Assembly (NCBI GenBank): GCA_033182465.1
Contig: CP137330.1
Span: forward strand, 868,001-932,000
DNA: 64,000 nucleotides
From: Sanghuangporus weigelae
Lineage: Eukaryota; Basidiomycota; Agaricomycetes; Hymenochaetales; Hymenochaetaceae
Direction: 5' to 3'
The position numbers and the translations under genes were made by a program. This document shows, one piece after another, positions 6,957 to 38,845 of the stretch. How positions within the stretch are numbered: position 1 is the first letter of the stretch; each line of letters opens with the position of its first letter. Below the pieces are notes generated by a model. The model worked only from the letters and a program-made list of their open reading frames with translations, was not told the DNA's origin and searched no databases.

Positions 6957-9567
6957 TTACAGAATGTCGCCTTTGACGAGGTTGCTAATTAAGACTTGCT
7001 CACTGACTAAATGCCCGGCAATGAGGAATTAGTAATTGTGATGTCAATAGGTTGGTTAACCAGGACGTACTGTGAGTAACAACTTTAGAAGTAGCACGAG
7101 AATCCTTATCATGCCACAATAAGATCATGGTTTAATACAACACGGAGGGAAGGTCACTTACTATCACGGAAGTAAGGTAAGCCCGGAGTTTTCGTGGTTT
7201 AGGAGAGAATTTTTTATGAGCCGCATTGAACGTGGCCAGCATATCTACGGTCCCAGATATTGTCTGTGAGATAGATGATCATAGTAGTCAAGATATTTCC
7301 GGAGCTCACATCTTGCTATACTCTCAGCATCGTTCTTCGCACCGTCTTGGTCATCGTAGTTGACGACATAATCAGAAAATCGAATTCCGGAACGTATCTT
7401 GGCCCGAAGAGCGTCGTACTTGTTCAAGAACAGGATAAACTCGACAGATGCGAGAAGGCGATTGGCACAGATTTCTCGCCAAAGGTGGAACGTGTCCTCC
7501 TGATGTGAAGAAAGCGTTATCGTCAGTTCTCCATCTCAACATCCCTCGTTGCAACGACGTGTAAGTGGGAAACTCAAACACTCACTAATCGATTGACACT
7601 TGGGTCCTCAGCAAGCCATTCGTCAAACGCCGAGATCGGGGCGAGAAAGATGATAGCATTCACTGTGAAGAGAAAAAAGCCACCGTGAAGGCCGACGAAT
7701 CGAGTTAGTAAATCTGATCAATCAAATCCGATGCACAGAGAAAGGGTCATCGTGATATCAGGGTTATCGCATTTCAAAAAGTAAGGCACATTCGCCCTCG
7801 AGATCGCGGCGTGTTTTCGATCACCAGTAAAGGAGAAACGGACTAACCAGTGTCAAAGAATGGCGCCCATGCAGCTCGTTGACTGCGAAATCCTCCGACG
7901 TCGTAGATTACCCATTCTTTACCCGCATCTGTCCCGGTCTCTAAAATCAGTCTGTGCTCCTCGACGCCCGTTGTTTGAAGACGAGCACGAAGGATATCAG
8001 CTGAAGGACACATTAGTCAATCACATGGATGATAGTTGCATCGCTTAGACTTACATGTAGTAGGCATGTAATCAAAGGCTGTGATGCGCAGGACATCGTT
8101 CAAGAAACTTCGTAATGCATTAGTCTTTATCTTCACCTTCCAGTAGGATGAAAGACGGCTTACAAGCCTGGTCGATTCTCTAGCCGAATATTCTTGCGCT
8201 TTAGGAGTCTTTGAACGTCCTCATTTCGCCAGAATTTTTCAATATCTTCTCCAAAGACCTGAATAATTTGTCGAGCTGATTGAAGCTCTCGCTCCTCCTG
8301 TTCGCCCATGGCGTCCAGGCTCGGACTCCTGGAACTGGGGTGGGAGAAGTCATGCTCTATAGATATGCTTGAGGTGCTGCGTCCAGAACTGAAACTATCC
8401 GGTATTCGTGCACGCCGTCTCCACCCTGTGCTCCCTCGTACTTTAACCGCAAAGGAGTCAACCAGACCATAAAGTCTGCTGTTTCGTCGATGATGGAGGC
8501 GTCCCTTCAACACCGCCGAATCCGGAGCCAAAGTCGCCGAAGGAATTCCACTGCTGTGCCCATTTGGATCTGTTGGACTAGGACTCGAGATAGATGACGT
8601 CGATGAAGTGGCCGAAGAAGAGATGGAGTGTCTCCTGAAACCAAGCAAATGCCTGTTGTAATTACCGGGTAACGAGGACTGTGCCGAAGCGGGACGGGCA
8701 TATGGATCTCGAGATTCCTTTATTTGCTGCTGGTATTTAGGAGCTTTTATTACACTCGATATGCCATCACGTAGCTCCGTCTTTGTTGGATCTACAACCG
8801 ATGGTTCAGCTCCGAGACGCTGTCGGAGTGTCTGTTCGATGCTTTTTAGGGGAAGGAGACTGAGCATCAGACGGCGAAGTTCAGTCGAGTATGCTGGGCG
8901 CTGTTGATTCGTCCTAGACTCAGTAGGGTAGCCAGCCGAGTTTTCAATTGATCGTAGTCGCGATTTCTCTTTCTCTATGAGCTGCCGGGAAGGCGTTGTA
9001 AATAAATATGGCAGCTTCTGTTGCTGCTGCTGTGCATCGTCCGCGTCAGGAAGTAATGATTCCTTCAGCACTTCCAACAGATAGCTCACGGAGATCAAGA
9101 GATTGAGATGAATGACAGTCCTCCATGCCTCTCCGTCTGCTTGGAACGCTTGTGGCGCTAGGTTCAATTGGAAGTTCCGAAGCGTAGTGGATTTCCCAGA
9201 CTCCGATTGACCTAGCCGGCCAAAATGCCCGATTGGATTAGTACGTGAGACGATCCATTAAGAGTAAGGAGAACTCACCCAGAAGCAGGATCTTCACCGT
9301 CTTATTCTTCTTTCTTCTCGAACGCTCTGCAGAAATGCTGAGATCAATCTTCTCATTCGTCTGTTGCGCCTCCCAATCCTCAGCAGCCTTCCGCGCCACA
9401 TCTTCAGCTGTCTCGAAGGTATCGTCCAGCCTGGGAGGCCAGTGCGACGAATCCTCCCTTTGCGAAGGTAGACTGGGCATCGTCCTGGACCTGGAAGCGG
9501 ATGGATCGAAAGTGTGGCCCGTTTGTCCTCGGGTACTCGACTTATGACGAGAAGACGAATGGACCAT
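6957..9567 (-). CDS. Non-canonical heterotrimeric G-protein alpha subunit (G-alpha 1)
   Basis: GTP-binding alpha subunit of the G-alpha family, enlarged to 658 residues against about 350 for canonical ones. Nine exons: 9567-9279, 9211-8164, 8107-8055, 8000-7848, 7662-7586, 7499-7310, 7244-7162, 7104-7071, 7006-6957 (1,977 nt). Order: about 97-residue charged N-terminal extension without an MGxxxS myristoylation site; P-loop GQSESGKST; a helical domain swollen by a Ser/Gln-rich low-complexity insert (about 150-330); switch I ILRARLQTTGV with Arg and Thr kept; switch II DVGGFRSQRAAW, where the catalytic Gln is Phe; base-recognition FLNKYD; and a C-terminal helix ending ISNLVKGDIL. Phe at the Gln position predicts weak GTP hydrolysis. 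Paralogue of the gene at 34484-38845, with shared intron positions. Possible partner receptors are unknown. Confidence 0.93.
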
Positions 9568-34483: not shown

Positions 34484-37400
34484 ATGGTCTCCGCTCGACG
34501 TGCACCAAAGCCTCCACCCGCCGAGGTCGTCTACGATGACCGCGTCCCGCCCTCCACCTCCGCCTCCTTCGCAGACCCAGCAGCCGAGCGCGAGAGGCTG
34601 CTTAACTCCGACGACCCGCTCACCCGTGCACTAGCCCCGCCGCCGAACGAGACGGCGCAGCAGCGTGCAGCGCGTCTCGCAGCCGCGGCCGAGGCCAAAC
34701 GCATCTCTGACATGATTGATGAGGAGCTGGCGCGCCAGCGTGCAGCGGAGAAGAAGGGCCAGCGGCCTGTCAAGATCCTCCTCCTCGGTAAGCGTCTTTA
34801 GCCCTCTGTTGAGCTGGCTGGAAAGTTGCTGATACATGCATACAATGTACATCTGTGTACAGGACAAAGCGAATCTGGTGCGTACCCGTTCCTGCTATCG
34901 GTTTTTTTTCCTTTTCTTTTCTGTTGCTGGGTGCAACGCAATGACCGAGCGCTTCGGCATATGCTTCCCAATTTCTTCTGCATCCCAATAATGTCTTGAA
35001 CATCGGAAATCTTACTTCCTCCTCAGGCAAATCGACTACTCTCAAGAGTGAGTTTCTCAATTGTCCTTCGGAGCCTTTTCTATACTAGACTCGGCTTCTT
35101 TTTGTCATTTGACAGATTTCCAATTAATGAACTCCCCAAAGGCGTTCCGCGCGGAGCGTCTCTCCTGGCGCGCAGTCGTGCAGCTCAACATCGTGCGCTC
35201 TGTACGACTCATCCTCGACGCCGTGGCAGATGCAGCGGAAGCGCAGGGTCTCTCCCTCGACGCGTCGTCCGCGGCGGGATCGGAGTCCGGATCGACACCG
35301 GGCACGCCCACTGACAAACAACACTTACCTCCATCACCTCAGACGAGAAATGGCAATGGGAACGGGAACGGAATTATATCCCCGACGCAGGACTGCTATA
35401 ACCTGATAACACCCGCGCATGTTGCCCTGCGCAGACGATTGCTTCCGCTACTAGACGCGGAGGCAACGCTTCTCGCGCGACTGATGCCCGTTGCTGCCGC
35501 TACGGGCACATCGTTAAGGGAAATTGAGAATCCACACGCGACGACCAGTTCGTCGAGCGGCTCAGCTCCGAACTCAGTTAAGGGAGGGAAGGGAGGGAGA
35601 AACTCACGTGAGTGCAGTTAGCAAGCAGGTAGCTTTTGAAATTGATGGCATTGGTTAACATGTTAGCGAGTGACTCTGCTTCGAAACTTGCGGAAAGTAA
35701 TGGATCGAGTCCGACGACGGGGACTGCACCTGCAACAGCAGGAACAAAGGAGGTCTCCGTTTTTGCAGGTTCGGCGTGGAAGACGGCGTTCACGAAGGTG
35801 CTTGGAGCAGGGCGGAATGGATCCGGGAAAGGTATGTAATTACCTTTCTCGTTTTAATCTTCATTGACGTCTCTTTAGGTGGTGTTGGAGAGGATGGAAT
35901 AGACTGGAGTGACGAACGCGATCCGACGCGCGTGCTTGCTGCATGCGGTGCGGATCTTCGTGCATTATGGTCAGACGCGAGGATACGAGCGCTGTTAAGC
36001 CGTAATAAGTTGCGGTTGGAGGAAATGCCTGGATTGTAAGTAGCATCTTCATCAAACTGTGAAGTCGAGTACGCTCATGCTAGTCACGCCAGCTTTCTCG
36101 ATTCACTCGATCGAATAACAAAAATCGATTATGTGCCCACAGACGGTACGTGCCTCTTTTACCTTATCGAGTAACCCGCCGCCATCTACAACTTCTGTTA
36201 TGATCGTCCTGTCACACCCGACAGATGACATTTTGAAAGCCCGGCTCAAAACCCTCGGAGTCACGGAGTACAGATTCACGATGAAAGCGGGTATGTCACA
36301 CCATCTCCCTGATTTGAATTCTGACTGATGAGTGGACGAAAAGGAAACGCTGTGAGCCATGATTGGCGAGTGTATGACGTCGGGGGGCAACGATCGTTGG
36401 TGAGCTTCTTTCTCGCCTTAGTGACGCGGTACTATCAGGCACTCATTCCCTATTCTCTCTGGACAGCGGGGTATGTCACCTTGAGTTCTTTCTGTCAAGA
36501 TAAAATTATGGAACGTTGAATTTGAATAGCCGCATGGGTCCCGTTCTTCGACGATATGAACGCGATCATCTTCCTTGCTCCGATAAGCTGTTTCGACCAA
36601 GTACTTATGGAGGATAACAGCGTCAATCGACTCGTGCGTCTTTCGTCAGAGTATAGTTCTAACCTCACCACCTTTGCTTTCTGTTGTCGTATACAGGAGG
36701 ATAGCGTCCTCCTCTGGAAGAGCGTCGTCTCAAATCAACTACTCGCAAAAACAAATCTCGTGCTGTTCTTGAACAAATGCGACGTGCTACGCGCCAAGCT
36801 GCGTGCGGGGATCCGACTAGGGAAGTATGTGATTAGCTACGGGGACCGACCGAATGACTTTGAGCACGCGAGTGAATGTGAGTTTCTTTTCTTCTTTCTC
36901 AGCTGCGTCACTTGACTTTGTTCTACATAGACCTCCGCCGTAAATTTTATAATATTCATCACGAGCACTCGCCAGAGCCGCGCCAATTTTATAGTCACTT
37001 TACGTCTGTCACGGTGCGTCACGTCGCGTTTTAGTTGTTCTATTTTTATTTTCCTTTACTTTTTATTTTATTTTTCTATTGTTTCCTTCACTTTTCGACA
37101 ATTCTGTTTTCCATCTTTTTGGTGCTCATCTATCCACCGCCGAAGGCTTCCTCCTTGCATAACGACGCCACTCTAATATCATAGGGGCACGGAAGGTGTT
37201 GTGGTTTTTACCAAAACCGTCGTGCAATCTTCCTATCATTGTTCACTGTCCTGGAGTTTTTTGGAGTCGAGGATTCATTAATCCTAATTTGTGCTCATCC
37301 CTTGATTCATGAGTTGTTCAACGTGTTTTTCGTTCTACAACTTTTTCTTTCTTTGCACGCTTTGCCCTTGAGTTTGACACTCTCCGGCGGATCCTTTCTC

Positions 37401-38845
37401 AGTAACAGGGTTTTTCCAACCCCGCATGTATGTTCGCGGTGATATTGAAACCTAGCTTCCTTGATGCATCGCGGCTTTGTTTTCCCGCTTCTTTCATTAT
37501 TTCTTTCTTTGGTGCTTTGATTCAAACTTCGTTGTTGCTTCTTCTTCGTGCTTTGGTTTATCCCTGCACGTAGCGAGTCTGCTTTGTTCTGTTCCGCTTG
37601 GCTTTTTGACTTTTTGACAACTCACAACTGATGATTCTGTTCTTTTTTCTTTTTCCGGTTTTTTTACACGCGTTTCCGCTCCGCTGGTTGCCGATTCTCC
37701 CTCGGAAAACCTTCGTATCACCATCAAATGCGACCGTACCGCCGTCTCCGCCGACCTGATATCTGCTACATCGCGCTATCGCGCTTCTCCCATTCACTTT
37801 GTATGTATTCCATCCATCATTCCGTTCGGTGCGGGGTAATATCCGGCAATATCCGGTAACTTCGGCGAATTAATCAACAATTCCGGCAATTCGGATTCCT
37901 TCCTACGATGAATCGGTCCGTTCGCCCGCATCTCCGGTTCCCATGGCGGTGGCGACGATACTTTCATGATATTCGATTTGGGGGGGATGGATATTTAGGA
38001 TACGAAAACGACATCGAAGATACTCGAGAATGGTGCGTTGAGCGTTAGATCTTCATTCCTCTCTCACATCCTGTCTCGGCAACGTTTATCCGTTGCTGTT
38101 TTTCCTTCTTCCTTCCTCACTATTCTTCATTCGTTTATCCGCTGTTTGCTGCTTTTCCCTATCTTGTCCTGAGTGGCGGCGGCGAAGATGAGCTGCTAGT
38201 CTATCTTCGCATCGCGATGGCTCAGCGCTCTGCTCCGCTTCCTTACTTTTCGTTTTTCGTAATTCTGTTTGCTCGTTCTAAGGATACTCCGACGAGCTAA
38301 GACTGAACTGGAGCGGGAGTTTGTCGTTAGGACGATCTTTGCTCCAACCCGGGGCTTCCTGATGATGAGCTCTGATCGGTCCTTCCCGTCAGTGCTTCGC
38401 TGTCTTCCTATCTCTGCGTTCCTCTGATTGATATCTCTCGCTCTGGTCACCGTTTTGCCTTCTTTGCGTGTTTCGTTTTGCGTTGGAGCGGTGTGGGCGC
38501 TTCCACGCTACGTCGCGGAAGGATGGATATGTGACGTTTCTTCTACTTTCCTTTGCCCCTTTCTTCTTCTTCCTGGGCCCCTGGTTCTAGTGCTTTCGTT
38601 TATCAAGGAAGGAAGAACTTCCGAGACTCTGGGAAGGTCTCGTAACATCCTACCATTTGACCACTGTTTCTGTTACGCTCTCTGTTGCTTCTTTCTTCAT
38701 TGATTGTTGCGATGATGATTACTGACGGAGATTTCTTTCCTGCGTTTGCTTTGTTCGGGTCGTACCGTGCGTGATGGAATGTGGACATCCAGTGGCCGAT
38801 ATGGTGTTACGCACGAACCTGAAAGCGTCTCAGCTTATCGGATAA
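34484..38845 (+). CDS. Non-canonical G-protein alpha subunit (G-alpha 2), 15 exons with micro-exons
   Basis: Second enlarged G-alpha, 595 residues. Exons: 34484-34787, 34863-34877, 35027-35047, 35116-35607, 35667-35831, 35879-36035, 36093-36145, 36225-36290, 36344-36399, 36467-36470, 36530-36633, 36697-36877, 36931-37013, 37999-38032, 38793-38845; they total 1,788 nt. Order: about 100-residue charged N-terminal extension with no myristoylation site; P-loop GQSESGKST; a helical domain with Ser/Gly-rich insert (about 150-280); switch I ILKARLKTLGV; switch II DVGGQRSLRAAW with the catalytic Gln kept; FLNKCD; FTSVTDTKTTSKIL; and C-terminal VLRTNLKASQLIG. The 4-nt exon 36467-36470 is needed to restore frame and gives the expected switch II. 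The last two introns are 985 and 760 nt. Paralogue of the gene at 6957-9567. Effector and receptor unknown. Confidence 0.92.

Follow-up and report, generated by a model that had tools for sequence, protein, structure and literature searches.

Among the described systems closest to the locus reported here is a 1-nt exon in the CYP621A P450 genes of Fusarium, which is documented in 20 orthologues and by SRA reads and lies within a compound intron of 139 nt (PMC12940212). The P450 genes of Phanerochaete chrysosporium contain exons of 6 to 8 nt, 6 nt being the shortest microexon described for them, and many of these microexons are in silico assignments (PMC1184071). Plants have many microexons of ≤15 nt, which are established by RNA-seq and RT-PCR and conserved across species (PMC8831610). 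Inclusion of the Xlr2 microexon of Trichoderma virens is glucose dependent (PMC11121469), and in fungal stwintrons, introns lie so near each other that they are removed stepwise, by intron definition (PMC5639578). A search of the open-access literature, a scope that takes in few subscription journals, turned up no fungal G-alpha gene with a published microexon.

Here we describe a putative 4-nt exon, CGGG, in Galpha2, a divergent G-alpha gene of Sanghuangporus weigelae. Like the CYP621A exon, it lies in a conserved motif and was deduced from the reading frame and an uninterrupted relative, and its compound intron region (130 nt including CGGG) is likewise about twice the usual intron length. 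It differs from that exon in size (4 nt rather than 1 nt) and gene family (G-alpha rather than P450), and it was compared with paralogues rather than orthologues. Galpha2 resembles the Phanerochaete P450 genes in that both belong to multigene families of fungi, rich in short introns and including exons only a few codons long, but it belongs to a different family and its exon is shorter (4 nt versus 6 nt). As in plants, where VPS55 is an example, tiny exons escape annotation and occur in some paralogues and not in others. The Xlr2 microexon is a fungal precedent for an exon required for a functional domain. The Galpha2 exon is predicted from sequence, whereas the published accounts provide reads for CYP621A, RNA proof for the plant microexons, and glucose dependence for Xlr2. 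The closeness of its flanking introns recalls stwintrons; however, 4 coding nt are left between them, while the parts of a stwintron leave no exon.

Structure of the Galpha2 gene

The window, the whole 64,000-nt stretch of DNA that was analyzed, comprises bases 868001-932000 of contig C13 in a genome of 33.87 Mb (13 contigs). Unless a contig is named, coordinates are those of the window. A model assembled by hand resolves Galpha2 (L020) into 15 exons encoding 595 aa plus a stop codon, with the frame open throughout. Its features, with the evidence for each in parentheses, are as follows.

34484-34787, plus strand: exon 1 (hand model)
34863-34877, plus strand: exon 2, 15 nt, first half of the P-loop, QSES (hand model)
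35027-35047, plus strand: exon 3, 21 nt, second half of the P-loop, GKSTTLK (hand model; split common to paralogue L017)
35116-35607, plus strand: exon 4, variable insert (hand model)
35667-35831, plus strand: exon 5, variable insert (hand model)
35879-36035, plus strand: exon 6 (hand model)
36093-36145, plus strand: exon 7 (aligner and hand model)
36225-36290, plus strand: exon 8 (aligner and hand model)
36344-36399, plus strand: exon 9, with DVGGQRSL at its end (join check and hand model)
36400-36466, plus strand: intron 9, 67 nt, phase 0, GTGAGC...CAG (splice-site check)
36467-36470, plus strand: exon 10, the putative 4-nt microexon CGGG, an Arg codon plus the first base of the following Ala codon (join, aligner, shuffles, and enumeration)
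36471-36529, plus strand: intron 10, 59 nt, phase 1, GTATGT...TAG (splice-site check)
36530-36633, plus strand: exon 11, AWVPFFDDMNAIIF... after two leftover bases (join check and hand model)
36697-36877, plus strand: exon 12, NKCD motif (aligner and hand model)
36931-37013, plus strand: exon 13 (hand model)
37999-38032, plus strand: exon 14, 34 nt, DTKTTSKILEN (hand model)
38793-38845, plus strand: exon 15, VADMVLRTNLKASQLIG plus stop (hand model and product check)

The exon count and the total of 596 codons, ending with the exon at 38793-38845, reproduce those of a preliminary description of this DNA. Rereading the sequence also bore out its coordinates, its splice dinucleotides, and its placement of CGGG at 36467-36470.

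The predicted product covers 333/333 positions of the Pfam G-alpha profile PF00503 (E value of 7.1e-97; 325 bits against a cut-off of 48.8). Within its 595 aa are QSESGKST, RLKTLGV, DVGGQ, NKCD, and VADMVLRTNL, which we take to be the P-loop, the Switch I RxKT motif, the DVGGQ motif, the NKxD motif, and the C-terminal helix, respectively; VADMVLRTNLKASQLIG, encoded by exon 15, is a fitting C-terminal helix. The leave-one-out aligner runs described below placed the introns of the variable insert (exons 4 and 5) differently from the hand model. The last two introns, 37014-37998 and 38033-38792, are 985 and 760 nt long, compared with 52 to 87 nt for 39 of the 55 modelled introns.

A putative 4-nt exon in Switch II

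Exon 9 up to position 36399 encodes NAVSHDWRVYDVGGQRSL and ends at the donor junction TTG/GTGAGC. When exon 9 is joined to exon 11 through CGGG, the product reads DVGGQRSLRAAWVPFFDD (in a longer stretch, VYDVGGQRSLRAAWVPFFDDMNAIIF). Joining 36399 directly to 36530 loses the frame and gives DVGGQRSLPHGSRSSTI followed by a stop, confirming the earlier assertion that a single intron here shifts the frame and that CGGG restores it. Galpha1 (L018), which had been proposed as the uninterrupted counterpart, indeed reads FRSQRAAWAPFF at this place. CGGG supplies the Arg of GQRSxRxxW, and the motif aligns without gaps to GQRSERKKW of a solved G-alpha structure (chain 8xqp_A). The 4 nt are thus required for both the frame and conserved residues.

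The location in the catalytic switch given by the preliminary description holds as to place, but the Gln at the end of DVGGQ, the catalytic residue, is encoded by the preceding exon 9. By motif, the microexon Arg corresponds to R208 of Galphai. In Galphai, R208 forms with G203 and E245 the G-R-E triad, which stabilizes the active form (PMC11092800).

CGGG is bordered on both sides by GT-AG introns that could each be removed separately, the acceptor of the second being slightly below the reference range. That range comes from 40 introns, 15 of the 55 modelled introns having been excluded for lengths outside 45 to 110 nt. Both donors flanking CGGG fall within it (6.5 bits for intron 9 and 6.2 bits for intron 10). 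Intron 9 has an acceptor of 4.4 bits and a CTCAT 25 nt before its 3' end. The acceptor of intron 10, GTTGAATTTGAATAG, scores 0.4 bits, under the reference minimum of 0.8, and the intron has no match to the branch-site patterns CTNAY/YTRAY, which 34 of the 40 reference introns contain. The region of this acceptor (36515-36529) is purine rich.

We enumerated the other ways of splicing this region. Seven single introns, with GT-AG, GC-AG, and AT-AC types covered, are free of stops and in frame; none of the seven keeps the Arg and one keeps the family length. Four of them retain AWVPFF, and all four need the weak 36529 acceptor as well. With the last acceptor fixed at 36529, introns of at least 40 nt, and a middle exon of up to 60 nt, nine two-intron solutions preserve the frame, and CGGG alone among them keeps both the spacing and the Arg.

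A protein-to-genome aligner with splice scores was also applied; its penalties were set by hand, it imposed no minimum exon length, and its first pass was seeded by one canonical G-alpha, with some of the introns that it models in variable inserts likely to be wrong. When the query was the L009 protein, from a divergent, canonical paralogue with a single open frame, it placed an exon exactly at 36467-36470 unprompted. With a profile built from five microexon-free paralogues, Galpha2 scored 160.3 with the microexon and 149.8 with one intron. No shuffle of the Galpha2 interior reached 160.3 (0/500; maximum of 156.0), and the best model included an inner exon of ≤12 nt in 9 of the 500. Among 5,000 shuffles, AG-(Arg codon + N)-GTNNGY appeared in 3, AG-(Arg codon + N)-GT in 31, and AG-N4-GTNNGY in 57, patterns that, like those used for L016 and L017 below, were chosen after the data had been inspected.

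CGGG is the sole enumerated splice solution that provides the frame, the fixed spacing of the family, and the Switch II Arg together. It is therefore very probably a genuine, constitutive internal microexon, and Galpha2, an intact though divergent G-alpha gene, would include it in most of its transcripts.

Alternative explanations

The preliminary description had held that skipping of the exon would be harmful, and the conceptual products agree: translation would stop after 452 aa if CGGG were skipped, after 448 aa if intron 10 were retained, and after 495 aa if intron 9 were retained. Since each of these failures leads to an early stop, CGGG is predicted to be needed for a working protein. 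These early stops, together with the weak acceptor of intron 10 and the published case of a regulated fungal microexon in Xlr2 (PMC11121469), lend something to the proposal that CGGG is an alternatively spliced switch, whose regulated inclusion would let skipping or intron 10 retention silence the gene. We regard this as unlikely. Skipping would have to use the same weak 36529 acceptor, reached from farther away than the acceptor of intron 9, which is both stronger and nearer; skipping is therefore the less likely event, and the likelier failure would be retention of intron 10. Galpha2 and L017 each have a weak second acceptor, which makes two cases. If anything here is regulated, intron 10 retention would be the first suspect.

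A less probable reading still dispenses with the microexon through one intron with a GC donor, 36404-36529, which lengthens exon 9 by 4 nt and gives the protein DVGGQRSLVTAWVPFF. This intron preserves both the frame and the family length, and L017 offers an equivalent in a GT donor (GTATCA) 4 nt downstream, which gives SRSQVTTW; the VT, however, is what any GTNA donor yields once 4 nt are added to the exon. The resulting VTAW has Val in place of the Arg that 9/9 genes whose Arg is not microexon supplied carry, the score of the donor GCTTCT is -8.6 bits, where the lowest among the 40 reference introns is 2.3, and the aligner score is the 149.8 given above rather than the 160.3 obtained with CGGG.

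It is very improbable that a sequencing or assembly error creates the apparent need for CGGG or that Galpha2 is a pseudogene. A six-G run does lie immediately 5' of the region, but it reads GGG GGG, the in-frame Gly pair of DVGGQ. An error of 1 nt would repair the frame yet leave the protein one residue shorter than the spacing in the other models, which requires 4 nt, and the remainder of the 596-codon frame is open, with similar layouts in two paralogues. We give next to no credence to a stwintron, with one intron nested within a splice site of the other and no exon in between: although fungi do have close introns that need stepwise removal (PMC5639578), the frame breaks if nothing is retained between 36399 and 36530, the nested solutions of family length among those listed all rely on the GC donor at 36404 and so give VTAW, and, in an analysis covering splice-site nesting, 4 coding nt lie between the introns.

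Switch II in the G-alpha paralogues

The analyzed set contains 11 G-alpha genes, 3 canonical and 8 in an extended group, and the split between the groups has support of 100/100. L019 (C5:1335k) was excluded from the set, as its motif is that of an Arf-type GTPase rather than a G-alpha. In viral and prokaryote contigs, 13, 105, and 41 pattern-matched stretches were retrieved as possible relatives, and none was confirmed by tblastn.

Arg occupies the microexon column in 11/11 models, or in 9/9 when counted independently, the Arg of Galpha2 and L017 coming from the microexon itself. Five of the eight extended-group genes have a Switch II without a microexon. L011, L012, and L018 run uninterrupted from DVGG to AW, L014 has a single intron just 5' of DVGG, and L015 has a single intron after RQ. 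The remaining two besides Galpha2 each contain a candidate microexon, located with the aligner and an intron map.

C13:418213-418216, minus strand: candidate 4-nt microexon AGAC (Arg) of L017
C5:2443103-2443111, plus strand: candidate 9-nt microexon CGAGGCCAG (RGQ) of L016

The earlier remark that 4-nt exons are very rare is a fair one, but Galpha2 does not stand alone: these two candidates accompany it, and 1-nt as well as 6- to 8-nt exons have been published for other genes of fungi (PMC12940212 and PMC1184071). L017 reads DVGGSRSQ, intron, AGAC, intron, CTACGTGG. Its Arg codon is AGA, where that of Galpha2 is CGG, and the acceptor of its second intron is likewise weak, at 1.5 bits. L016 reads DVGGA, intron, CGAGGCCAG, a GC-AG intron (GCAAGC), CGTCACGCGTGG, and its nearest relative, L011, reads DVGGARGQRHTW unbroken.

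The L009 query recovered both candidates unprompted. Leave-one-out family profiles recovered the microexons again, although the other microexon genes were represented in these profiles by their first-pass models. L016 scored 75.7 with its microexon and 68.6 without; 3 of 500 shuffles matched this, and the RGQ motif was found in 0 of 5,000. Support for the L016 microexon from these comparisons is good. L017 scored 62.9 with the microexon against 61.6 with a single intron, and 149 of 500 shuffles did equally well; among 5,000 shuffles, its motif appeared in 12 (strict), 113 (loose), or 227 (any 4 nt). The rival single intron, which loses the Arg, has a donor of -3.4 bits (reference minimum of 2.3), and it is this donor and the motif count that back the L017 microexon. 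On balance, the support for this candidate is mixed, and we consider it less secure than the Galpha2 exon.

An intron at position 347, phase 0, directly ahead of the Arg codon, is found in L016, L017, and Galpha2 (L020), and the 9-nt exon of L016 ends at it. Position 348, phase 1, which falls within the following codon, is occupied only in L017 and Galpha2, 344, phase 0, only in L016, and 349, phase 0, only in L015. L017 and Galpha2 also have in common a split P-loop that is absent from the other nine models. The tree of the 11 paralogues does not resolve these two as sisters (support of 48/4 and 61/42), so their layout may not have a single origin. Galpha1 lies at 7278-9215 on the minus strand of the window, ~25 kb from Galpha2, with which it shares intron positions 284/2, 302/1, and 383/0.

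Among the eight extended-group genes, Galpha2 is the only one with Gln after DVGG (36382-36392); the other seven have A, S, T, or F. Given the catalytic role of this Gln, L011, L012, and L014 to L018 may hydrolyze GTP poorly or differently.

A proposal for splicing and origin

Introns 9 and 10 (67 and 59 nt) both fall within the 52- to 87-nt range of most modelled introns. Because both flanking introns are of the usual length, we propose that splicing proceeds by intron definition, with each intron recognized as a unit, a mode indifferent to the length of the exon between them. The two would presumably be excised in sequence, one first, as splice factors could hardly fit both ends of a 4-nt exon simultaneously. 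A transcript that skipped CGGG or retained intron 10 would acquire a premature stop and would probably be degraded.

As to origin, the simplest account would be an older intron at position 347 with later neighbors on either side. The 347, phase 0, intron would be old in this branch of the G-alpha family. A second intron would have arisen later, 4 nt downstream of 347 in Galpha2 and L017 or, separately, 9 nt upstream in L016, and its gain would have left tiny exons within a conserved motif. Intron loss or sliding could result in the same pattern of positions.

Implications

The Galpha2 microexon, a well-supported prediction from the genome sequence, belongs to a rare but known sort of gene structure. 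What is new is its candidate recurrence at the same spot in L017 and L016. A more far-reaching idea, to which we attach a low probability, is that, in the extended G-alpha group, microexons recur at Switch II, which would serve as a point of post-transcriptional control. The 4-nt exons of Galpha2 and L017 would carry the Arg matching R208, inefficient removal of the weak downstream intron would cut output, and skipping of the 9-nt exon in L016 would produce an in-frame variant minus the three Switch II residues RGQ.

If confirmed in RNA, the structures described here would give a core signaling gene a coding exon of 4 nt, alongside 4-nt and 9-nt candidates in two of its paralogues. They would indicate that gain of an intron next to an older one can be tolerated even when it breaks a conserved motif into segments a few nucleotides long. 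They would also suggest that, at Switch II, automatic annotation probably gets G-alpha genes of this sort wrong. The Galpha2 microexon would also offer a natural test of the minimum exon length for the fungal spliceosome under intron definition.
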